A stretch of DNA of 64,000 nt. Origin: an uncultured Dehalococcoidia bacterium. GTDB taxonomy: Bacteria; Chloroflexota; Dehalococcoidia; Lucifugimonadales; UBA1123. The notes beneath the pieces were generated by a model. The model ran no database searches. It was given only the letters and a program-made list of their open reading frames with translations, and was not told the origin of the DNA. Shown in pieces: positions 15,514 to 27,330 of this stretch (position 1 is its first letter; the number at the start of each line of letters is the position of its first letter). The stretch lies in assembly GCA_958296105.1 (NCBI GenBank), contig OY282441.1:1151800-1215799 (forward strand), written 5' to 3'. A program made the translations under genes and the position numbers.

Positions 15514-16647
15514 ATGATCTTTGCAGACGGAGCGGATATCTATCGCAGTCTCGGAGTCTCAGCCGCGATCACCGCGTCCGGATCCACCACCGCCTACGGG
15601 GGAAGCAAGCTGCGCCCGGAGGTGACGGACGCCATGAACAAGGCGTCCCGGACGATGGTCAACCTAGACCATCTCAACGCGGCGGCTGGCCGAGCCATAG
15701 CCGAGATCACGGGCGCCGAGGCGGGCCTGGTGACGTCCGGGGCAGCCGGAGGGCTGGTGCTTCAGGCTGCGGCGGTCATGGCAGGGAGCGACCCGGCGCG
15801 AATGGCGCGGCTTCCCAACTCGGACGGTCTCAAGAACGAGATCGTCATGCACACGGCCCACCGCTTCCCATACGACCAGTGCTACACCGCCACCGGAGCG
15901 ACGATAGTCAATATCGGCGACGGGCGCAGGTGCCAGCCGTGGGAGCTGGAGGCCGCCATCAACGAAAACACCGCCGCCGTCGCCTACCTGTTCTCGTCGT
16001 TCCTGAGCCGCCGCGCCATTCCCTTCGAGCAGGTGGTCGAGATCGCCCACGCGCGCGATGTTCCGGTCATAGTGGACGCCGCCTCGTACCTGCCGCCGAG
16101 AGCCAATCTCACGCGGTTCGTCGAGGCAGGGGCGGACATGGTGCAGTTCTCGGGCGGCAAGGGTGTTCGGGGGCCGCAGGGAACGGGTATCTTGGCGGGG
16201 CGCGCCGACCTCATAGAAGCGGCTTACGCCAACGCCAGCCCTCACCAGTTCATCGGCAGGGGAATGAAGGTGGCCAAGGAGGAGATCGTCGGCCTCGTCG
16301 AGGCGCTGCGCATCTTCGTATCGGAAGACGAGGATGCGCAGATGCGGCGGTACAGCGAGATGTGCGATCGGGTGGTGGACGCGCTCATCGAGGCGCCGGG
16401 CCTGGACGTGACGGTGGAGCATGACGACTGGCACTACCTCACGCCCCTTGCGGTGATGAAGTTCACCCGCGACTGGCGCGGCCCATCGAGAGACGAAGTT
16501 CACGCCCAAATGGCCGCCGGCGACCCGCCGATATACCTGCACGACATCAACGACCCGGACGAGCTGGCGGTCGACCCGTTCAACCTGGACGAGCGGGAGC
16601 TGGAAATCGTCATCCACCGCCTGCGCGAGGTTCTGCTCGGTGGGTGA
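15514..16647 (+). CDS. SelA-fold PLP-dependent enzyme (aminotransferase class V-like)
   Basis: 377 residues. The protein follows the SelA/D-glucosaminate-6-phosphate ammonia-lyase type PLP fold. It has an N-terminal GSTTAYGGSKL substrate-loop, TSGAAGGLVLQAAA (cofactor phosphate region), PVIVDAASYLPP (Asp to the pyridine nitrogen) and the Schiff-base Lys216 in FSGGKGVRGPQGTG. ATG 15514 follows GGGAGG. True selenocysteine synthases are longer (about 450 residues) with an N-terminal tRNA-binding domain not evident here, so I do not call it selA; an amino-acid or sugar-acid lyase is more likely. Confidence 0.8.
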   Translation: MIFADGADIYRSLGVSAAITASGSTTAYGGSKLRPEVTDAMNKASRTMVNLDHLNAAAGRAIAEITGAEAGLVTSGAAGGLVLQAAAVMAGSDPARMARLPNSDGLKNEIVMHTAHRFPYDQCYTATGATIVNIGDGRRCQPWELEAAINENTAAVAYLFSSFLSRRAIPFEQVVEIAHARDVPVIVDAASYLPPRANLTRFVEAGADMVQFSGGKGVRGPQGTGILAGRADLIEAAYANASPHQFIGRGMKVAKEEIVGLVEALRIFVSEDEDAQMRRYSEMCDRVVDALIEAPGLDVTVEHDDWHYLTPLAVMKFTRDWRGPSRDEVHAQMAAGDPPIYLHDINDPDELAVDPFNLDERELEIVIHRLREVLLGG

Positions 16648-16692
16648 CGGAGGTCGCCCGTCCACGGAACGGCCGTGTTTTGGACACAGAAA

Positions 16693-16698
16693 TACAAT
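16693..16698 (+). promoter_or_regulatory. Candidate -10 element (TACAAT) for the Uma2 array
   Basis: TACAAT lies 28 bp before the first Uma2 ATG at 16726. No equivalent occurs in the 42-bp spacers between the later copies, so this may drive the whole array. Confidence 0.4.
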
Positions 16699-16725
16699 AC
16701 CCTCCCGACAGCCCGGAGGACAGAA

Positions 16726-17613
16726 ATGGCCACTGTACTAACCGTGAAGGCGCGACAGCCGACCGGAGACTATACGTTCCCCAAGCCTCTGCCCAAGCCT
16801 CTGCCAAGGCCCCACTCCATGCAGCAAGAACCGACAGTAACCGAAATACGGGCAACCATCCGCCACCACTTTTCGGGCCGCCCCGACGTGTTCGTGAGCG
16901 GCGAAGGCTACCTCTGCTTCGACACGCGGGACAGAGTAGGCTGGCTGATACCAGACTGCGTCGTGGCGTTCGGGGTGGATCCGCGCGCCATATTCAGGCG
17001 CAACGGATACGTGATCAGCGAAGTGGGCAAGCCGCCTGACTTCATCATCGAAGTCGCCTCATCGAGTACGGGGGCCGCCGACTACACCACCAAGCGCGAC
17101 AGGTACTCCGAGTACGGTGCCGTCGAGTACTGGCGGTTCGACCCCACGGGGGGAGCGTTCCACGACCGGCCTCTGGCAGGGGACACGCTGGTGGACGGCG
17201 AGTACCAGCCCATCCCTCTGCGCTACGAGCCTGACGGAGTTATCCGAGGACACAGCGCCGTCTTGGGGCTGGACCTGTGCTGGGTCAACGGCAGGCTGCG
17301 CTTCTACGACCCCGCATCCGGCGAATACCTGCGCAACATATCGGAGGCCGAGGCGCGCGCCCAAAGAATGGAATCCGAACGAGCCCAAGCCCAAGCCGAA
17401 CGAAACGAGGCCGAAGCCGAACAGGCGGACGCCGAAATGCGCGTCCAAAGAATGGAGGCCGAACGAGACGAGGCGCGGGCGGAACAGGCGGACGCCGAGG
17501 CGCGCGCCCACAGAATGGAAGCCGAGCGAGCCGAGTCCGAGGCGCGCGCGCAAAGAACGGAAGCCGAGGTTCGGCGGCTCAGGGAGGAGCTGCGCCGAAT
17601 GCGCTCGGAGTAG
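16726..17613 (+). CDS. Uma2-family (DUF820) protein, array copy 1, long coiled-coil tail
   Basis: 295 residues. The core is the Uma2 PD-(D/E)XK nuclease-like fold with IPDCVV, DFIIEVASSST and TTKRDRY giving the Asp, Glu and Lys of the motif, then EYWRFDP. The N-terminus carries a proline-rich KPLPKPLPRP stretch. The C-terminus is a charged coiled-coil of about 87 residues built from diverged EARAxRMEAE-type repeats, ending in VRRLREELRRMRSE. The ATG at 16726 follows GGAGG. It differs from copies 2-4 at the first residues, so the duplication boundary is probably just inside the gene. Uma2 proteins are abundant in cyanobacteria and Chloroflexota; their activity is largely uncharacterised. Confidence 0.85.
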   Translation: MATVLTVKARQPTGDYTFPKPLPKPLPRPHSMQQEPTVTEIRATIRHHFSGRPDVFVSGEGYLCFDTRDRVGWLIPDCVVAFGVDPRAIFRRNGYVISEVGKPPDFIIEVASSSTGAADYTTKRDRYSEYGAVEYWRFDPTGGAFHDRPLAGDTLVDGEYQPIPLRYEPDGVIRGHSAVLGLDLCWVNGRLRFYDPASGEYLRNISEAEARAQRMESERAQAQAERNEAEAEQADAEMRVQRMEAERDEARAEQADAEARAHRMEAERAESEARAQRTEAEVRRLREELRRMRSE

Positions 17614-17655
17614 CAACCGCCCTATCCAAGATATCCTCGGACGGAGGAACGCGCA

Positions 17656-18351
17656 ATGACCACCAGACTCATCGAGACACCTCGACTGACCGGAGACTAT
17701 ACGTTCCCCAAGCCTCTGCCCAAGCCTCTGCCAAGGCCCCACTCCATGCAGCAAGAACCCACAGTAACCGAAATACGGGCAACCATCCGCCACCACTTTT
17801 CGGACCGTCCAGACGTGTTCGTGAGCGGCGAAGGCTACCTCTGCTTCGACACGCGGGACAGAGCAGGCTGGCTGGTACCAGACTGCGTTGTGGCCTTCGG
17901 GGTTGATCCGCGCGCTATATTCAGGCGCAACGGATACGTGATCAGCGAGGTGGGCAAGCCGCCTGACTTCATCATCGAAGTCGCCTCATCGAGCACAGGG
18001 GCCGCCGACTACACCACCAAACGCGACAGGTACTCCGAGTACGGCGCCATCGAGTACTGGCGGTTCGACCCCACAGGGGGAGCGTTCCACGACCAACCTC
18101 TGGCAGGGGACACGCTGGTGGACGGCGAGTACCAGCCCATCCCCCTGCGCTACGAGCCTGACGGAGTTATCCGAGGCCACAGCGCCGTTCTGGGGCTGGA
18201 TCTGTGCTGGGTCAACGGCAGGCTGCGCTTCTACGACCCCGCATCCGGCGAATACCTGCGCAACATATCGGAGGCCGAGGCGCGCGCCCACAGAATGGAA
18301 GCCGAGGTTCGGCGGCTCAGGGAGGAGCTACGCCGAATGCGCTCGGAGTAG
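17656..18351 (+). CDS. Uma2-family protein, array copy 2, minimal tail
   Basis: 231 residues, the shortest copy. Predicted active-site residues are Asp76 (VPDCVV), Glu108 (DFIIEVA) and Lys122 (TTKRDRY). The tail has only one EARAHRMEAE unit before VRRLREELRRMRSE. It is 42 nt from both neighbours. This copy is the simplest reference form for the array. Confidence 0.85.
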   Translation: MTTRLIETPRLTGDYTFPKPLPKPLPRPHSMQQEPTVTEIRATIRHHFSDRPDVFVSGEGYLCFDTRDRAGWLVPDCVVAFGVDPRAIFRRNGYVISEVGKPPDFIIEVASSSTGAADYTTKRDRYSEYGAIEYWRFDPTGGAFHDQPLAGDTLVDGEYQPIPLRYEPDGVIRGHSAVLGLDLCWVNGRLRFYDPASGEYLRNISEAEARAHRMEAEVRRLREELRRMRSE

Positions 18352-18393
18352 CAACCGCCCCATCCAAAATCTCACCGGACGGAGGAACGCGCA

Positions 18394-19110
18394 ATGACCA
18401 CCAGACTCATCGAGACACCTCGACTGACCGGAGACTATACGTTCCCCAATCCGCTGCCCAAGCCTCCGCCAAGGCCCCACTCCATGCAGCAAGAACCCGC
18501 AGTAACCGAAATACGGGCAACCATCCGCCACCACTTTTCGGACCGTCCAGACGTGTTCGTAAGCGGCAAGGGCTACCTCTGCTTCGACACGCGGGACAGA
18601 GCAGGCTGGCTGGTACCAGACTGCGTTGTGGCGTTCGGGGTTGATCCTCGCGCCATATTCATACGCAACGGATACGTGATCAGCGAAGTGGGCAAGCCGC
18701 CTGACTTCATCATCGAAGTCGACTCATCGAGTACAGGGGCCGCCGACTACACCACCAAGCGCGATAGGTACTCCGAGTACGGCGCCATAGAGTACTGGTG
18801 GTTCGACCCCACAGGGGGAGCGTTCCACAACCGACCTCTGGCAGGGGACACGCTGGTAGATGGCGAGTACCAGCCCATCCCTCTGCGCTACGAGCCTGAC
18901 GGAGTTATCCGAGGCCACAGCGCCGTTCTGGGGCTGGACCTGTGCTGGGTCAACGGCAGGCTGCGCTTCTACGACCCCGCATCCGGCGAATACCTGCGCA
19001 ACATATCGGAGGCCGAAGCCGAACGAGACGAGGCCCAAGCGCGCGCCCAAAGAGCGGAGACCGAGATTCGGCGGCTCAGGGAGGAGCTGCGCCGAATCCG
19101 CACGGAGTAG
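18394..19110 (+). CDS. Uma2-family protein, array copy 3, most diverged core
   Basis: 238 residues. The putative catalytic Asp, Glu and Lys are kept. Several core positions differ from the other three copies: SGKGYL for SGEGYL, IFIRNGY for IFRRNGY, EVDSSST for EVASSST and EYWWFDP for EYWRFDP. The tail has its own sequence (AEAERDEAQARAQRAETE) and ends RRIRTE. These changes fall near the predicted active site and could alter activity or specificity. Confidence 0.85.
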   Translation: MTTRLIETPRLTGDYTFPNPLPKPPPRPHSMQQEPAVTEIRATIRHHFSDRPDVFVSGKGYLCFDTRDRAGWLVPDCVVAFGVDPRAIFIRNGYVISEVGKPPDFIIEVDSSSTGAADYTTKRDRYSEYGAIEYWWFDPTGGAFHNRPLAGDTLVDGEYQPIPLRYEPDGVIRGHSAVLGLDLCWVNGRLRFYDPASGEYLRNISEAEAERDEAQARAQRAETEIRRLREELRRIRTE

Positions 19111-19152
19111 CAACCGCCCCATCCAAAATCTCACCGGACGGAGGAACGCGCA

Positions 19153-19974
19153 ATGACCACCAGACTCATCGAGACACCTCGACTGACCGGAGACTATACG
19201 TTCCCCAATCCTCTGCCCAAGCCTCTGCCAAGGCCCCACTCCATGCAGCAAGAACCGACAGCAACCGAAATACGGGCAACCATCCGCCACCACTTTTCGG
19301 ACCGTCCAGACGTGTTCGTGAGCGGCGAAGGCTACCTCTGCTTCGACACGCGGGACAGAGTAGGCTGGCTGATACCAGACTGCGTTGTGGCGTTCGGGGT
19401 GGATCCGCGCGCCATATTCAGGCGCAACGGATACGTGATCAGCGAGGTGGGCAAGCCGCCTGACTTCATCATCGAAGTCGCCTCATCGAGTACAGGGGCC
19501 GCCGACTACACCACCAAGCGCGACAGGTACTCCGAGTACGGCGCCATAGAGTACTGGCGGTTCGACCCCACGGGGGGAGCGTTCCACGACCAGCCTCTGG
19601 CGGGGGATACGCTGGTGGACGGCGAGTACCAGCCCATCCCTCTGCGCTACGAGCCTGACGGAGTTATCCGAGGCCACAGCTCCGTTCTGGGGCTGGATCT
19701 GTGCTGGGTCAACGGCAGGCTGCGCTTCTACGACCCCGCATCCGGCGAATACCTGCGCAACATATCGGAGGCCGAAGCGCGCGCCCACAGAATGGAAGCC
19801 GAGAGAGCCGAGGCCGAGGCGCGCGCCCACAGAATGGAAGCCGAGAGAGCCGAGGCCGAGGCGCGCGCCCACAGAATGGAAGCCGAGAGAGCCGAGGCCG
19901 AGGCGCGCGCCCACAGAATGGAAGCCGAGGTTCGGCGGCTCAGGGAGGAGCTGCGCCGAATGCGCTCGGAGTAA
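19153..19974 (+). CDS. Uma2-family protein, array copy 4, perfect-repeat tail
   Basis: 273 residues. The core is as in copies 1 and 2. The tail consists of three full and one partial copy of a 14-residue unit (EARAHRMEAERAEA), encoded by near-perfect 42-bp repeats, before VRRLREELRRMRSE. It is the last copy: the 42-nt spacer motif is not found after it. Confidence 0.85.
   Translation: MTTRLIETPRLTGDYTFPNPLPKPLPRPHSMQQEPTATEIRATIRHHFSDRPDVFVSGEGYLCFDTRDRVGWLIPDCVVAFGVDPRAIFRRNGYVISEVGKPPDFIIEVASSSTGAADYTTKRDRYSEYGAIEYWRFDPTGGAFHDQPLAGDTLVDGEYQPIPLRYEPDGVIRGHSSVLGLDLCWVNGRLRFYDPASGEYLRNISEAEARAHRMEAERAEAEARAHRMEAERAEAEARAHRMEAERAEAEARAHRMEAEVRRLREELRRMRSE
19774..19929 (+). repeat. 42-bp coding minisatellite in Uma2 copy 4
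   Basis: Units lie at 19774-19815, 19816-19857 and 19858-19899, with a 30-bp partial unit at 19900-19929. They are identical apart from one GAA/GAG change in the first. Each adds 14 residues in frame. Such a tract can change length by slippage or unequal recombination without breaking the gene. Confidence 0.95.
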
Positions 19975-20180: not shown

Positions 20181-21728
20181 ATGAAGTACGACCACATCAT
20201 CATCGGAGCGGGTTCGGCAGGGGCGATTCTCGCCACGCGGCTGACGGAAGACCCTTCCAAGTCCGTTCTGCTGCTGGAGGCGGGGCCTGATTACGCCGAG
20301 ATGGAAGACCTGCCCGACGAGGTGCGCTACGGCTACGCCACCGCCACGGACATTATGACCAGCGACCACAACTGGCAGCTCACCGGGCGCGCCACAGACG
20401 CGGCGGAGCCTATGCTGGTTCCCAGAGGCAAGGTGACGGGCGGGTCGTCCGCCATCAACGGCCAGATATTTCTGCGCGGCGTCCCCGAAGACTATGACAA
20501 CTGGAAGTCGTGGGGCAACGGCGAATGGGGTTTCGAGGACTGTCTACCCTACTTCCGCAAGCTGGAGACCGACACCACCTACTCGGACGACTTCCACGGC
20601 ACGGACGGACCAATCATCTGCCACAGGTTCCCAGAAGAGACGTGGCAGCCCGTCTCCAAGGCGTTCTATCAGTCCTGCTTGGACTACGGCTTCGAAGACT
20701 GCCCGGATCACAACAACCCGGACTCTACGGGCGTGGGACCGCTGCCGCTGAACAACCCCAACGGCATCCGCTGGAGTACCAATCTCGGCTATCTGAGCCT
20801 CTCGCGCCATCGCCTGAATCTGACCATCCGCCCCAACTGCGTGGTCCACCGCGTCGTGTTCGACGGAAACAGGGCCACGGGCGTCACGGTAGAGAGCGGT
20901 GGCGAGGTGTTCACGGTGGAGGGCGACGAGATCATCCTGAGCGCGGGCGCGGTGGGATCGCCCCAGATACTCCTGCTGTCCGGCGTCGGCCCGGCGGCGC
21001 ATCTCGACGAGGTCGGCATTCCAGTCGTCCACGACCTGCCGGGAGTCGGACAGAACCTGCGAGACCATCCGCTGGTGTACGTCACCTGGCGCGCGAAGCC
21101 CGATCACGAGTTCGACCTGTATGGTCCCAGAATGCAGTTCGGGCTGCGTTACACTGCCACCGGCTCCGACCTGCGCAACGACATGATAGTCTATATGAAC
21201 AACTTCGCCACCGAGCGCGTGAACCGCGGCGGCAGCCGCATGGAGCCGATCGGCGTCCGAATGATAGTCGGCCTCGATCTGGAAGTGGGCGCGGGCGAGC
21301 TGAAGCTGCAGTCGTCCGATCCGCGAGCGCAGCCCTCGCTGGACTACAACTACTTCACGGAGGAGTTCGACCGCGAGCGCATGAGGGAGGCGGTGCGGAT
21401 ATGCGTGGGGCTGGGCGAGCATGGGGCTTGGGACGACATCCTCGCCGAGCGAATGGAGCCGCCGGACGAGGCGCTGGAGTCGGACGACGCGCTCGACGAA
21501 TGGATGATGCGCGAGGTCACGACCGGTCATCACATATCCTGCACCAACAAGATGGGGCCGGCGTCCGACCCTATGGCGGTGGTCGATCAGTACGGCAAGG
21601 TCCACGGGCTGGAGGGCGTCCGCGTGGTCGACGCATCCATCATGCCCGACTGCGTGCGCGCCAACATCAACGTGACCACAATGATGATCGGCGAGAAGAT
21701 AGCGGACATGATCGCGGAGGGGCGGTGA
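20181..21728 (+). CDS. GMC-family FAD oxidoreductase, copy 1
   Basis: 515 residues of the glucose-methanol-choline family (choline dehydrogenase-like alcohol oxidation). The FAD dinucleotide motif is GAGSAG (Gly9-Gly14). LLEAG, the RGKVTGGSSAINGQIFLRG signature and the C-terminal GHHISCTNKMG with its active-site His are visible, followed by GVRVVDASIMPD. The ATG at 20181 has GGAGCG upstream and starts directly at the flavin-binding strand, so it is cytoplasmic. It is a paralogue of the 22077 gene. Substrate unknown; SAR202-type bacteria often carry many such paralogues. Confidence 0.92.
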   Translation: MKYDHIIIGAGSAGAILATRLTEDPSKSVLLLEAGPDYAEMEDLPDEVRYGYATATDIMTSDHNWQLTGRATDAAEPMLVPRGKVTGGSSAINGQIFLRGVPEDYDNWKSWGNGEWGFEDCLPYFRKLETDTTYSDDFHGTDGPIICHRFPEETWQPVSKAFYQSCLDYGFEDCPDHNNPDSTGVGPLPLNNPNGIRWSTNLGYLSLSRHRLNLTIRPNCVVHRVVFDGNRATGVTVESGGEVFTVEGDEIILSAGAVGSPQILLLSGVGPAAHLDEVGIPVVHDLPGVGQNLRDHPLVYVTWRAKPDHEFDLYGPRMQFGLRYTATGSDLRNDMIVYMNNFATERVNRGGSRMEPIGVRMIVGLDLEVGAGELKLQSSDPRAQPSLDYNYFTEEFDRERMREAVRICVGLGEHGAWDDILAERMEPPDEALESDDALDEWMMREVTTGHHISCTNKMGPASDPMAVVDQYGKVHGLEGVRVVDASIMPDCVRANINVTTMMIGEKIADMIAEGR

Positions 21729-22076: not shown

Positions 22077-23600
22077 ATGATGATCTACGACCACGTCATA
22101 GTAGGCGCAGGGTCGGGGGGCGGCGCGCTGGCGGCGCGGCTGTCCGAAGACCCCAACCGCTCCGTGCTGCTGCTGGAAGCGGGCGTCGACTACCCCGACT
22201 TCGACACGATTCCCGACGACATCAAGTACGGCTGGGGAACAGGGACGGACTTCGTGGTGGAAGACCGCCATAACTGGGGCTTCACGGGGCGAGCGAGCGC
22301 GCTGAACGAGGCGATGGACGTCCCGCGCGGCAAGGTCACGGGCGGCACGAGCGCAATCAACGGACAGGTCTTTCTCAGGCCCACGATAGACGACTTCGAC
22401 TACTGGACATCTCTGGGCAACGACGAATGGAGCTACGGGGAGACGCTGCCGTTCCTGCGCCGCATGGAGACGGACACGGACTACTCGGACGACTACCACG
22501 GCAGCGACGGCCCGATCATCGTTCGCAGGCACAGCCTAGACTCGCTTCAGCCGGAGCAGGCGGCGTTCTATCAGTCGTGTCTCGCTCTCGGATTCCCAGA
22601 AAACCTCGACCACAACCACCCAGACGCCCACGGCGTGGGGCCGTACCCGCTGAACAACCCGAACGGCGTGCGCTGGAGCACCGCCATCGGCTATCTCGGC
22701 ATGGCGCGCCACCGCCTGAACCTGACCATTCGCCCCAACTGCTTCGTCCGCCGTGTGGCGTTCGAGGGAAACAGGGCTGTGGGCGTGGAGGTGGAGAGTG
22801 GGGGCGAGGTTTTCATCGTTCACGGCGACGAGATCATCCTCAGCGCCGGTCCCATAGCCTCGCCGCAGCTTCTGATGCTGTCCGGCATAGGGCCAGCCGA
22901 TCATCTGGCGGAGTTCGGCATCGGTCTGGTACACGACTCGCCCGGCGTCGGGCAGGGGCTTCGAGACCACCCCACCGTGCCGATGATCTGGAAGGCGCAA
23001 GCCCACGTCCCCGCGCCGCCGCAGGAGGTGGGTCCGCAGAAGGTCGCGCTGCGCTACACCGCGCCCGGCTCCCACCTGAAGAACGACATGATCGCAGTCA
23101 TGCGCTTTCGCAAGGAGGGTCACATGCTGCTGATGAGCGTTGGCCTCTATCTCGCGGTCGGACACGGGGAGCTGAGGCTGCAATCGGCCGATCCGCGCGT
23201 GCAGCCTCTTCTGGACTACAACTTCCTCGCCGACCCGTTCGATCGTCAGCGAATGCGCGACGGGATACAGCTCGCGCAGGACATCGTGGCAGGGACGAAG
23301 TTCGCAGACATCGCAGGCGCGCTCGTCTCGCCGAGCGAGGAGGATATGGAATCGGAAGGCGCGCTGGACGAATGGATGCTCCGCAGCGTCAGCACCATGC
23401 ACCATATATCATGCACCGCCAAGATGGGGCCGGATTCCGACCCCATGTCCGTAGTCGATCAGCACGGTCGCGTAAAAGGCGTCGCGGGCCTGCGCGTGGT
23501 TGACGGATCCATCCTGCCCGACTGCCCCAGATCGAACACCAACGTTCCCATAATGATGCTCGCCGAGCGCATCTCGGACTGGATCAAGGCGGGCGAGTGA
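22077..23600 (+). CDS. GMC-family FAD oxidoreductase, copy 2
   Basis: 507 residues, homologous throughout to the 20181 gene. It has a GAGSGG flavin motif near the N-terminus, RGKVTGGTSAINGQVFLRP, and the C-terminal MHHISCTAKMGPDSDP active-site region. I start it at the ATG at 22077 (GGAG 9 nt upstream). Its TGA overlaps the GTG of the DUF3179 gene by 4 nt, so translation is probably coupled, placing the DUF3179 protein in the same operon. Confidence 0.92.
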   Translation: MMIYDHVIVGAGSGGGALAARLSEDPNRSVLLLEAGVDYPDFDTIPDDIKYGWGTGTDFVVEDRHNWGFTGRASALNEAMDVPRGKVTGGTSAINGQVFLRPTIDDFDYWTSLGNDEWSYGETLPFLRRMETDTDYSDDYHGSDGPIIVRRHSLDSLQPEQAAFYQSCLALGFPENLDHNHPDAHGVGPYPLNNPNGVRWSTAIGYLGMARHRLNLTIRPNCFVRRVAFEGNRAVGVEVESGGEVFIVHGDEIILSAGPIASPQLLMLSGIGPADHLAEFGIGLVHDSPGVGQGLRDHPTVPMIWKAQAHVPAPPQEVGPQKVALRYTAPGSHLKNDMIAVMRFRKEGHMLLMSVGLYLAVGHGELRLQSADPRVQPLLDYNFLADPFDRQRMRDGIQLAQDIVAGTKFADIAGALVSPSEEDMESEGALDEWMLRSVSTMHHISCTAKMGPDSDPMSVVDQHGRVKGVAGLRVVDGSILPDCPRSNTNVPIMMLAERISDWIKAGE

Positions 23601-25276
23601 CGAAGGGATATAAATTGGCGCTTGTGAAGATCGCGCTCGGAATCGCAGTGCTGCTACTCGCCTCGACAGCGGCCGGGTGCGGCGGCGCGTCCGACGCCGT
23701 TCAGTCTGCCGCGCCGTCGGCGAGCGCCACGCCTTTGCCGGAACCCTCGCCTACTGCCAACGCCGCGCCAACGCCAACGACTGCCATGACGAGCGTATTG
23801 GATACGCCAACGCCGGCGCCGCCCGTCGTACCCTCGCCGACTCCGACGCCCGCGCCTGACATGGCGAGCGTATCGGATACGCCAACGCCCGCGCCGCCCG
23901 TCGTACCCTCGCCGACTCCGACGCCCGCGCCCTACGATTCCAACCGCGCCATGCAGGACGTGCTGTCGGGGTTCGGAAGCGCCGCGGCGATGTCCGATGC
24001 GCTGGAAGAGATAGCGGAGCGCAAAGACAGGTCGCTCGCGCCTGTGCTGGTGGAGATGATGCGATTCATGCCATCTGCCAAGTCGAGGGAGAGCATCGCC
24101 CAGACGCTGGCAGTCGTCACGGGGCAGCCGTTCTCCGGCGACGAGTGGGGGCTGTGGATGGAGTGGCTCGGCCAGAATCTGGAAGACTACCAGCCGCCAT
24201 CGGACTATGTGCGCTGGAAAGAGTCGCTGTACTCCATAATAGACAGCAGGTTCGCGCTGTTTCTGCGTCCCGCGCGCGAGTTTTCGCGCATCGACCCGAC
24301 CGAGATCGTCTGGGGAGGGGTTCTTCCAGACGGCATACCCGATCTGCGCAGCCCCAAGTTCCTGGACGCGGGCGAGGAGCGATTCCTGAATCCGGACGAC
24401 CGCGTGTTCGGGCTGGAGATCAACGGCGAGAAGAAGGCATACCCTTTGAGGATCGTCAACGCGCACGAGATGGTCAACGATATGGTGGGGGGCGAGCCGA
24501 TATCGCTCATGTGGTGAACGCTGTGCGGAACCGGAATCGTGTATTCCGCCAAGATAGACGGTCAGACCACCACATTCGGCACGTCCGGGTTCCTGTACCG
24601 CTCCAACAAGCTGATGTACGACCGCATGACGAACACGCTGTGGAGCTCGCTTACGGGAGCGCCGGTCATCGGCGAGCTTGCGCGGCGAGACGACCTGAAG
24701 CTGGACTTCTTCCCAGTTTCGCTGACCACCTGGGAGGAGTGGGCGCGCGAACACCCGGACACGAAGGTTCTATCGAACGAGACGGGCTACTACTCGCCCA
24801 ACAGGTACGAGAAAGAGAGCGACCCGCGCTCGATCTACTACGACTACCGAGAAGACCCGACAACGATGTTCCCCATATGGAACCGCGACCCGCGTCTGGA
24901 AGCCAAGCGCGAGGTCTTGGGCCTGACTCTGGCGGGTGTGGACAAGGCGTACCCCGTGACGATGCTGCGCAAGCTCCGCGTGGTCAACGACACCGTTGGC
25001 GACAGGGATATCGTGATTCTGGCGTCTGGCGCGTCCTCTGACGCGCGCGTGTTCGAGCGGATGGGGCAGACGTTCGCGCTCGCGCCCGGGGACGATCCGG
25101 ACGGCGCTCCCCTCGCCCTCGTGGACGAGGACGGCGCGGAGTGGGAGGTCCGGCAAGACGGTCTTCACAAGACGGGAGGCGGGGGCGAAGCGCTGAGCCG
25201 CATCCCGTCGCTCATCTACTTCTGGTTCGGCTGGTTCGCCTTCCACCCGGACACGCTGCTGTACGAGGCGGAGTGA
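23597..25276 (+). CDS. DUF3179 lipoprotein with in-frame TGA at the CxxC motif (candidate selenoprotein)
   Basis: Read through one TGA (24515-24517), this is a 560-codon gene. The N-terminus is a signal peptide with lipobox AAGC. A Pro/Thr-rich linker of about 75 residues and a helical region follow. The DUF3179 domain runs from about residue 250: VVNDTVGG-like MVNDMVGGEPISLMW, then the TGA at codon 307, then TLCGTGIVYS. In homologues this motif is a CPLC/CTLC pair, so the TGA replaces its first Cys, giving UxxC (Sec307, Cys310). Coding sequence, base composition and domain continue in the same frame to 25276. A hairpin follows the TGA. GTG start overlaps the upstream stop. Alternatives are a nonsense mutation or a sequencing error. 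Confidence 0.65.
23791..23932 (+). repeat. 75-bp direct repeat encoding the Pro/Thr linker
   Basis: Two units with a period of 75 bp (first at 23791, second at 23866) encode near-identical linker segments containing DTPTPAPPVVPSPTPTPAP. They differ by a few bases. Confidence 0.85.
24525..24549 (+). promoter_or_regulatory. Hairpin just after the in-frame TGA (SECIS-like candidate)
   Basis: GCGGAA (24525-24530) pairs with TTCCGC (24544-24549). The stem begins 7 nt after the TGA and can be extended past a bulged U. Two further C-G pairs within the 13-nt loop would leave a GGAATC apical loop starting 15 nt after the TGA. Bacterial SECIS elements are hairpins immediately 3' of UGA with a G-containing apical loop, usually a little further away, so this fit is suggestive rather than ideal. 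Confidence 0.4.
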
Positions 25277-25360: not shown

Positions 25361-25423
25361 ATGAGAAGAGTGTTCATGCCCGCGTTCTTCGTCCTTTGTA
25401 GTGTCGAATCAACGAAGATGTAG
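25361..25423 (+). pseudogene. Truncated duplicate of the next gene's 5' end
   Basis: A 20-codon frame starting ATG AGA AGA encodes MRRVFMPAFFVLC, almost identical to the N-terminus of the following gene (MRRVFMPALFAL), then diverges and stops at TAG. Each copy has its own ribosome-binding site, TAGGAGCTGGCA here and GTAGGAACTTCA before the real gene. It looks like a 71-bp local duplication. Confidence 0.7.
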
Positions 25424-25431
25424 GAACTTCA

Positions 25432-27330
25432 ATGAGAAGAGTATTCATGCCCGCGCTCTTCGCCCTGTCGATCATGGCGCTAATCTCGGCGCTGATGGAG
25501 ATTGGGAACGCGAGCGCGCAGGCGACTTCTCCCGTCGACTACGACGCCGACGATGACGGCCTGATAGAGGTGTTCTATCTCGAACAGCTGAACGCCATGC
25601 GCTACGATCTGGACGGCGACGGCAGGGCGGACAACACGAACTCCGCTGAGGCTTACGCTTCCGCGTTCCCGTCAGCGCAGCCCGGAATGGGCTGTCCAGA
25701 CTCCCACTGCCGCGGCTACGAGCTGACGCGAAACTTGGACTTCGACAGCCGCGCCAGCTACATGTCCGGCTCGATCAGCGACAAGTGGACGGGGGGAGCC
25801 GGCTGGCTGCCCATCGGCCTCCTCGACAACCCTTTCGACGCCACCTTCGCGGGCAACGACTTCACCATCGCCAACCTGTACATCAGCCGCAGGGGTTTCT
25901 ACGATACGGGCGCGGCCGGACTGTTCGGCATCAGTGAGGGGGACATATCGCGGGTGGGAGTGGTCGACGCCGACGTAACTGGGGGGGATCAGGTCGGCGC
26001 GCTGGCTGGGTGGAACATTGGGCGGATCGCCGAGAGCTGGGCCACAGGCTCGGTCTCTGGGAATGACAACGTTGGCGGCTTGGCGGGGTTCTCCGGTTTC
26101 GGTGGATCCAGCGGAAGCGGTATAGTATCGAGCTATGCCGAAGTCGATGTGAATGGGACATACTCCGTCGGCGGACTGGTGGGGCTGAATGAACACGTAA
26201 TCTCCAAGACTTACGCCACTGGCGGCGTATCCGGAGGGCAGTATGCCGCAGGCGGGCTGGTTGGAATTAACTCCGGCGGACGCATCTTCGACAGCTACGC
26301 CACCGGCGACGTACTCGGACACGAAGCTGCTGGCGGCGGGCTGGTTGGAGACAACAGGAACAATGCGACAATAGCAGCGAGTTACGCTACCGGCGACGTG
26401 TCCGGAAGCTATTCCATGGGCGGACTGATCGGGATTGCCAACGGTGGCGCGCTCATAGCGAGCTACGCCAGCGGGGAGGTGTCCAGCGCTGGCGGGGCTG
26501 TTGGCGGGTTGGTCGGCGAGAGCTTAAGCGGTTCAGTGACAATAGCGAGTTACGCCAGCGGCAAGGTATCCGGAGGCGACCTCGTGGGCGGGCTGATTGG
26601 GCGAAACGATGGAACCGCGATAACGGTCGACAGCTATTGGGACACTATAACTTCCCGCGCGCGGGAGGGCGTGGGCGAAGGGCCATCGCAGGGCGCGCAG
26701 GGGAAGACCACCGAGCAGCTGAAGCTGCCCACAGACTACACCGGCATATACGCCGCCTGGCATTCGGATCTGGACAACGAGGACAGAGACTTCGACGAAA
26801 CGACAGGCGTGGACGACTTCTGGGACTTCGGAACGTCTGGCCAGTATCCTGCCCTGAAAGTGGACTTCGATGACAACAGAACGGCGACGTGGCGCGAGTT
26901 CGGCAGCCAGAGGCCGACGCCAACGCCTGTTCCAACGCCCGTTCCGACATCGACTTATACACCTGAACCTACGGCTACGCCTAGGCCAGCGCCCGTTCCG
27001 GCTTCGACATATCCGCCCGAGCCTACGATCACGCTTGGGCAAGCGCCCGCTCCGACACCGACATATCCGCCCGAGCCTACGATCACGCCGACACCGCTTC
27101 GCGCCGATACGCCCACTCCGCCGCCCGCCAGCGCGCCTGTGGCAGAGCTTACCGACAGACCTGCATCGGGTCTCGACGAACCCGAAGAACCGGAATCTGC
27201 TGGGGGATGCTTCTCTCCGGCGAAGGTCTCGGCTGGGACGTCGGCCGCCAACCTGCTGCTCATGGCTGCCCCGCTGGGCATGATCGGAGGGGTCAGATAC
27301 GTCAGAAGGCGGCGGACTGAGGGCATGTAG
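25432..27330 (+). CDS. GLUG-repeat surface protein with Pro/Thr stalk and C-terminal anchor
   Basis: 632 residues. A signal peptide (about residues 1-30, ending ASAQ) is followed by a Ca-binding-like DYDADDDGLIEV and a second DLDGDGRADN. Then come about seven GLUG-type beta repeats (GGLVGxN... and AxSYATGxVSG motifs, about residues 150-400), as in extracellular adhesins. A conserved C-terminal cap (SYWDTITS, then the WDFGTSGQYPALK segment near 465-480) precedes a Pro/Thr-rich stalk (about 500-575) and a transmembrane helix with a basic end (MIGGVRYVRRRR). It is probably displayed on the cell surface. A truncated copy of its 5' end lies just upstream. Confidence 0.85.
   Translation: MRRVFMPALFALSIMALISALMEIGNASAQATSPVDYDADDDGLIEVFYLEQLNAMRYDLDGDGRADNTNSAEAYASAFPSAQPGMGCPDSHCRGYELTRNLDFDSRASYMSGSISDKWTGGAGWLPIGLLDNPFDATFAGNDFTIANLYISRRGFYDTGAAGLFGISEGDISRVGVVDADVTGGDQVGALAGWNIGRIAESWATGSVSGNDNVGGLAGFSGFGGSSGSGIVSSYAEVDVNGTYSVGGLVGLNEHVISKTYATGGVSGGQYAAGGLVGINSGGRIFDSYATGDVLGHEAAGGGLVGDNRNNATIAASYATGDVSGSYSMGGLIGIANGGALIASYASGEVSSAGGAVGGLVGESLSGSVTIASYASGKVSGGDLVGGLIGRNDGTAITVDSYWDTITSRAREGVGEGPSQGAQGKTTEQLKLPTDYTGIYAAWHSDLDNEDRDFDETTGVDDFWDFGTSGQYPALKVDFDDNRTATWREFGSQRPTPTPVPTPVPTSTYTPEPTATPRPAPVPASTYPPEPTITLGQAPAPTPTYPPEPTITPTPLRADTPTPPPASAPVAELTDRPASGLDEPEEPESAGGCFSPAKVSAGTSAANLLLMAAPLGMIGGVRYVRRRRTEGM
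26941..27096 (+). repeat. 54-bp tandem repeat encoding the stalk
   Basis: Units start at 26941, 26995 and 27049 (period exactly 54 bp, the third incomplete) and encode an 18-residue Pro-rich segment containing TYPPEPTIT. The second and third units are more alike than the first. Confidence 0.85.

Follow-up and report, generated by a model that had tools for sequence, protein, structure and literature searches.

The gene at 23597-25276 (forward strand) very probably encodes an exported DUF3179 lipoprotein in which the UGA at 24515-24517 is decoded as selenocysteine (Sec), as judged from comparative sequence analysis. It lies within a 64,000-nucleotide stretch of DNA from an uncultured Dehalococcoidia bacterium, here termed the window. 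A preliminary description had proposed this reading from the nucleotide sequence, and it was borne out by the Sec machinery encoded in the same genome, by a site codon found only as TGA or Cys in homologues and by a covarying hairpin. The parts of this gene and the two GMC oxidoreductase genes described below are on the forward strand.

A DUF3179 gene with one in-frame TGA

The frame comprises 560 codons including the terminator, and its translation contained a single internal TGA, at 24515-24517; the terminal stop (25274-25276) is TGA too. The product would have 559 residues with Sec as residue 307. The GTG start shares four bases (GTGA, 23597-23600) with the stop of the upstream GMC oxidoreductase gene. 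A putative signal peptide with lipobox (..LLLASTAAGC, 23597-23680) and a putative lipidated Cys codon (23678-23680) were read from the sequence, and orthologues of the same genus also start with lipoprotein-like signals (..LVLAC, ..TLGC, and ..TLAC).

A Pfam scan of the protein returned DUF3179 (PF11376) alone, and no NCBIfam model matched. With the TGA read through, the PF11376 match extended over residues 245-553 (24329-25255) with 264.8 bits (E 1.4e-78; curated cut-off 27). Since it covers profile positions 2-292 of 292, the domain is unbroken across the TGA, in agreement with the earlier view of one TGA in an otherwise intact frame. The domain is one repeat in two copies; the AYP..VVND..VGG pattern occurs twice in the consensus and the secondary structure is likewise repeated. 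In the alignment with homologues the TGA coincided with the leading Cys of the CxxC motif in DUF3179 (SLMW-U-TLC), where the preliminary description had put it, and the second, putatively resolving Cys of the UxxC (24524-24526) was an invariant column. The subfamily of the window gene is characterized by the UTLC motif and an N-terminal helical region.

The site codon in homologues

Among 78 distinct DUF3179 sites from Chloroflexota genomes (82 rows minus four duplicates from overlapping loci) the codon at the site was TGA in 34 and a Cys codon in 44 (TGC in 36, TGT in 8). Neither TAA nor TAG was found at any of the 78, though the search pattern permitted both. The preliminary description had looked to homologues for TGA or Cys at this codon and had named other stop codons as evidence against Sec; only the former were encountered. 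DUF3179 was present in 18 of 30 relatives, and stop-bearing copies mostly had exactly one TGA. The exceptions were one TAA and two TAG, all from a single draft (G004), and a stretch in G005 in which TGA occurs twice. The window contained 72 TGA-split frames of similar rough shape, most with GC out of phase and others resembling neighbouring genes. On the basis of the 78 homologous sites, all TGA, TGC or TGT, the interruption of the DUF3179 gene exceeds chance.

The TGA could in principle be a nonsense mutation or a sequencing error in a Cys gene, the copy then being a pseudogene or a misread one, as TGC, TGT, and TGG are each one base from TGA. This is very improbable for the window gene and already refuted by recurrence for the family as a whole: a random stop mutation of a single codon would not yield TGA at the same codon in 34 distinct sites from many genera, one of which (L032) is another copy in the genome of the window gene. 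The dN/dS 3' of the TGA also remained low against relatives (0.18-0.40, rough values with synonymous sites near saturation), which argues for purifying selection on the frame beyond the TGA, and the hairpin covariation described below is confined to TGA forms.

The source genome (3.18 Mb, single contig) carries three DUF3179 genes: the window gene (UTLC), a Sec form (UPLC) at C1:2771475-2772374, and a Cys form (CPLC) at C1:753144-754085. In a midpoint-rooted tree of 74 DUF3179 domains the Sec and Cys labels need three changes, of which at least two are forced by well-supported branches. In the clade of the window gene, 12 rows were Sec and a single one was Cys (HCVLC, L061). This Cys gene adjoins a Sec copy of the same genome (L073); at L073 3862-6461 (OY282442.1, uncultured Dehalococcoidia) a Cys (CVLC) and a Sec (UTLC) DUF3179 gene are adjacent on one strand and form a natural Sec/Cys pair. 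Three further loci (L062, L063, and L064) represent a divergent Sec subgroup (YUIKCS) on a long branch, with a strong hairpin of its own (about -19 kcal/mol).

A hairpin maintained downstream of the TGA

The preliminary description had proposed a search for a bacterial SECIS element at 24515-24560. A hairpin was found at 24532-24548, with a 6-bp stem (24532-24537 paired to 24543-24548) and the loop CGUGU (24538-24542); the stem begins 15 nt and the loop 20 nt after the UGA. For the stem test, 24 Sec sequences of the UPLC/UTLC type, excluding the UPIC and UIKC subgroups, could be aligned without gaps. RNAalifold, supplied with these sequences and no structure, predicted the same 6-bp hairpin. 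Four of the six pairs had changes on both sides (30 cells in total among the 24 sequences), paired cells amounted to 98.6%, and the covariation score was 0.585, compared to 0.162 for shuffled and at most 0.093 for slid controls. The compensation reaches into the choice of Ser codon: an upstream GGA goes with Ser TCC and an upstream GCT with Ser AGC, so that the pair is kept.

When synonymous codons were redrawn, the Sec forms had 6.48 of 7 pairs against an expected 4.00, a value reached in none of 2000 draws. The same control on the Cys paralogues gave 2.77 observed and 2.77 expected, i.e., no hairpin signal. Because the 7-pair stem of this control was chosen after viewing individual folds, it is the Cys control and RNAalifold that carry the SECIS argument.

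The bacterial SECIS model has a loop of 3-9 nt, a stem of 4-16 bp, a G in loop position 1 or 2, and a distance of 16-37 nt from the UGA (PMC13188914). The window hairpin has a 5-nt loop, a 6-bp stem, a G at loop position 2, and a spacing of 20 nt. Its folding energy alone was -5.1 kcal/mol, and longer stretches gave -9.6 to -13.7 kcal/mol as a shifted fold, relative to a bSECIS energy criterion of -7.5 or lower. Over 54 nt of the window, the fold of minimum energy was a shifted variant of the hairpin, and energies of the region in single sequences were noisy (window z -0.71). The SECIS claim therefore rests on the comparative tests, by which the hairpin is maintained in Sec forms of the UPLC/UTLC type through compensatory changes. 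An Rfam scan of the whole window gave no match at gathering score.

The hairpin also bears on whether the TGA is a true stop, which would leave a truncated lipoprotein of 306 residues, with the remainder made separately from an internal GTG at 24539. The frames are open on both sides of the TGA, as this would require. Termination here would, however, cut the conserved first repeat mid-way, the GTG would fall inside the hairpin, and the Cys paralogues are full-length single proteins, so that separate products are highly unlikely.

Selenocysteine machinery

The genes for Sec incorporation that the preliminary description had listed to be sought in the same genome were all found. They comprise a tRNA-Sec with anticodon TCA (66.2 bits), SelB (329.7 bits), SelA at C1:521216-522556 (524 bits), and SelD (379 bits). 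SelD has its own in-frame TGA (CAG-U-ASK; L048 1531-1533, corresponding to C1:539682-539684) and is itself a selenoprotein. By these matches, the whole Sec pathway is encoded in the source genome. In the window, a SelA-like PLP protein (15598-16341) matched the SelA profile weakly, with 47.9 bits against a cut-off of 267.9, and was rejected as the true SelA, which is the gene at C1:521216-522556.

In G001 and G009, two drafts of related genomes that have TGA copies, no clear tRNA-Sec match was obtained, perhaps owing to incompleteness. As tRNA-Sec was found in 296 of 400 genomes of the phylum, co-occurrence of Sec-DUF3179 and tRNA-Sec within the phylum is weak evidence.

If decoding follows the established bacterial route, Sec-tRNA would be made by SelA and SelD, and SelB would bind the hairpin and bring Sec-tRNA to the UGA. 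Sec would then, as residue 307, take the first CxxC position of the exported lipoprotein. General reassignment of UGA, e.g., to Trp, or leaky read-through is the least probable reading: nothing was found in its favour, homologues have Cys and never Trp at the codon, the gene's own terminator is TGA, and a dedicated tRNA-Sec and SelB are present.

Gene neighbourhood

The DUF3179 gene is preceded by two GMC oxidoreductase genes, at 20181-21728 and, overlapping it, at 22077-23600, which form a cluster with synteny conserved at genus level: in three genomes of the same genus the DUF3179 gene stands 3' of two GMC oxidoreductase genes. In one of these three genomes (L136 3757-6132) the GMC pair is separated from the DUF3179 selenoprotein gene by a gene for a 5'-nucleotidase-like lipoprotein. 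Near two copies outside the genus (G028 and G010) no GMC gene stands out from the frame starts that were read, and the GMC proteins have no obvious signal peptide. As the arrangement was seen within the genus but not at these two copies, and the GMC proteins show no such signal, we regard a functional link to the GMC proteins as a lead only.

Two other arrangements were observed nearby. Four near-identical tandem ORFs at 16675-19974 (..TGDYTFPxPLPKPxPRPHSMQQEP..) with coiled expanding EARAHRMEAERAE tails look like a recent tandem duplication and perhaps encode Uma2-like proteins. At 25362-25465, just upstream of a GLUG-repeat surface protein gene (25432-27330), there is an apparent duplicate of the 5' end of that gene (ATGAGAAGAGTGTTCATGCCCGCG.. 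and ATGAGAAGAGTATTCATGCCCGCG..), the first copy being broken.

Predicted fold and likely function

AlphaFold2 gave confident models, with a mean pLDDT of 85 for 444 residues and 96 for a single repeat, and the second half of the DUF3179 model repeats the first. The first repeat (24422-24733), which bears the UxxC, was modelled as a Rieske-like beta fold (Foldseek probability 1.00, Z 9.9). The first 25 Foldseek matches of the single repeat were all Rieske-type, with a best probability of 1.00 and none with E below 0.001; against Rieske-fold domains the TM was about 0.5-0.6 and the VIA Z reached 9.9 over 97 residues. Foldseek with the whole protein gave no significant match, probably because the two repeats confuse the search. 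A sequence search of the PDB gave no match below E 0.39.

The Rieske cluster ligands C-x-H and C-x2-H were not conserved in the repeat, in which C35 and C38 are the sole invariant Cys. Alignment of the repeat to the Rieske profile (PF00355) with hhalign gave a probability of 1.9%, so that no profile similarity was found. Since this sequence-profile test failed, homology to Rieske proteins is not claimed. The ligand motifs (CxH/CxxH) of a Rieske [2Fe-2S] protein are thus missing, and DUF3179 was the only family in the Pfam scan.

The UxxC, the exported lipoprotein, and the beta scaffold together suggest an extracytoplasmic thiol/selenol oxidoreductase. Sec and the Cys three residues on may form a selenenylsulfide/selenol pair outside the membrane, on a ligand-less Rieske-like fold; from motif and modelled fold we consider this function somewhat more likely than not. 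More tentatively, and with rather less confidence than even, DUF3179 selenoproteins could be duplicated Rieske-fold domains in which the Fe-S ligands were lost or never present and which carry a Sec/Cys pair at another site, constituting paralogous extracytoplasmic selenoenzymes in Dehalococcoidia.

Comparison with known systems

Automatic annotation would probably split the gene in two at the TGA. The correct reading gives this Dehalococcoidia order several extracytoplasmic selenoproteins, from a family listed without known function. Having Sec and Cys paralogues in one genome allows them to be compared readily; the hairpin provides a clean case of RNA structure shaping codon choice.

The preliminary description knew of no selenoprotein form of DUF3179, a statement that is out of date. 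DUF3179 (PF11376) is included with the motif UxxC/T in the prokaryotic selenoprotein list of a 2022 review (PMC9312934) and again, citing Zhang and Gladyshev (2007), in a 2026 review (PMC13188914). The listed selenoprotein has the Pfam family and the UxxC with Sec first in common with the window gene. Plasmid database records also name a product "DUF3179 domain-containing (seleno)protein". Because reviews and records already list DUF3179, the window gene is a member of a known selenoprotein family and not of a new one. In the titles and abstracts searched, mostly outside subscription journals, we found no paper on a DUF3179 selenoprotein in Chloroflexota. The 2007 study by Zhang and Gladyshev, cited as the source for the DUF3179 selenoprotein, reportedly concerned the Olavius algarvensis Delta 1 symbiont. 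The host there would be a deltaproteobacterial symbiont, whereas the window host is an uncultured Dehalococcoidia-type bacterium, a distinction drawn by host.

The Cys-form DUF3179 proteins (CPLC, including the one at C1:753144-754085) share the domain and the CxxC with the window gene, but their site codon is TGC or TGT and they gave no hairpin signal. The predicted fold of one DUF3179 repeat resembles Rieske-fold domains (PF00355), among them NirD, the small subunit of NADH nitrite reductase; the repeat has neither their CxH/CxxH ligands nor profile similarity to them. Relative to the listed family, the Dehalococcoidia members, their SECIS, the history of the paralogues, and the structural lead of a Rieske-like repeat without cluster ligands are new.
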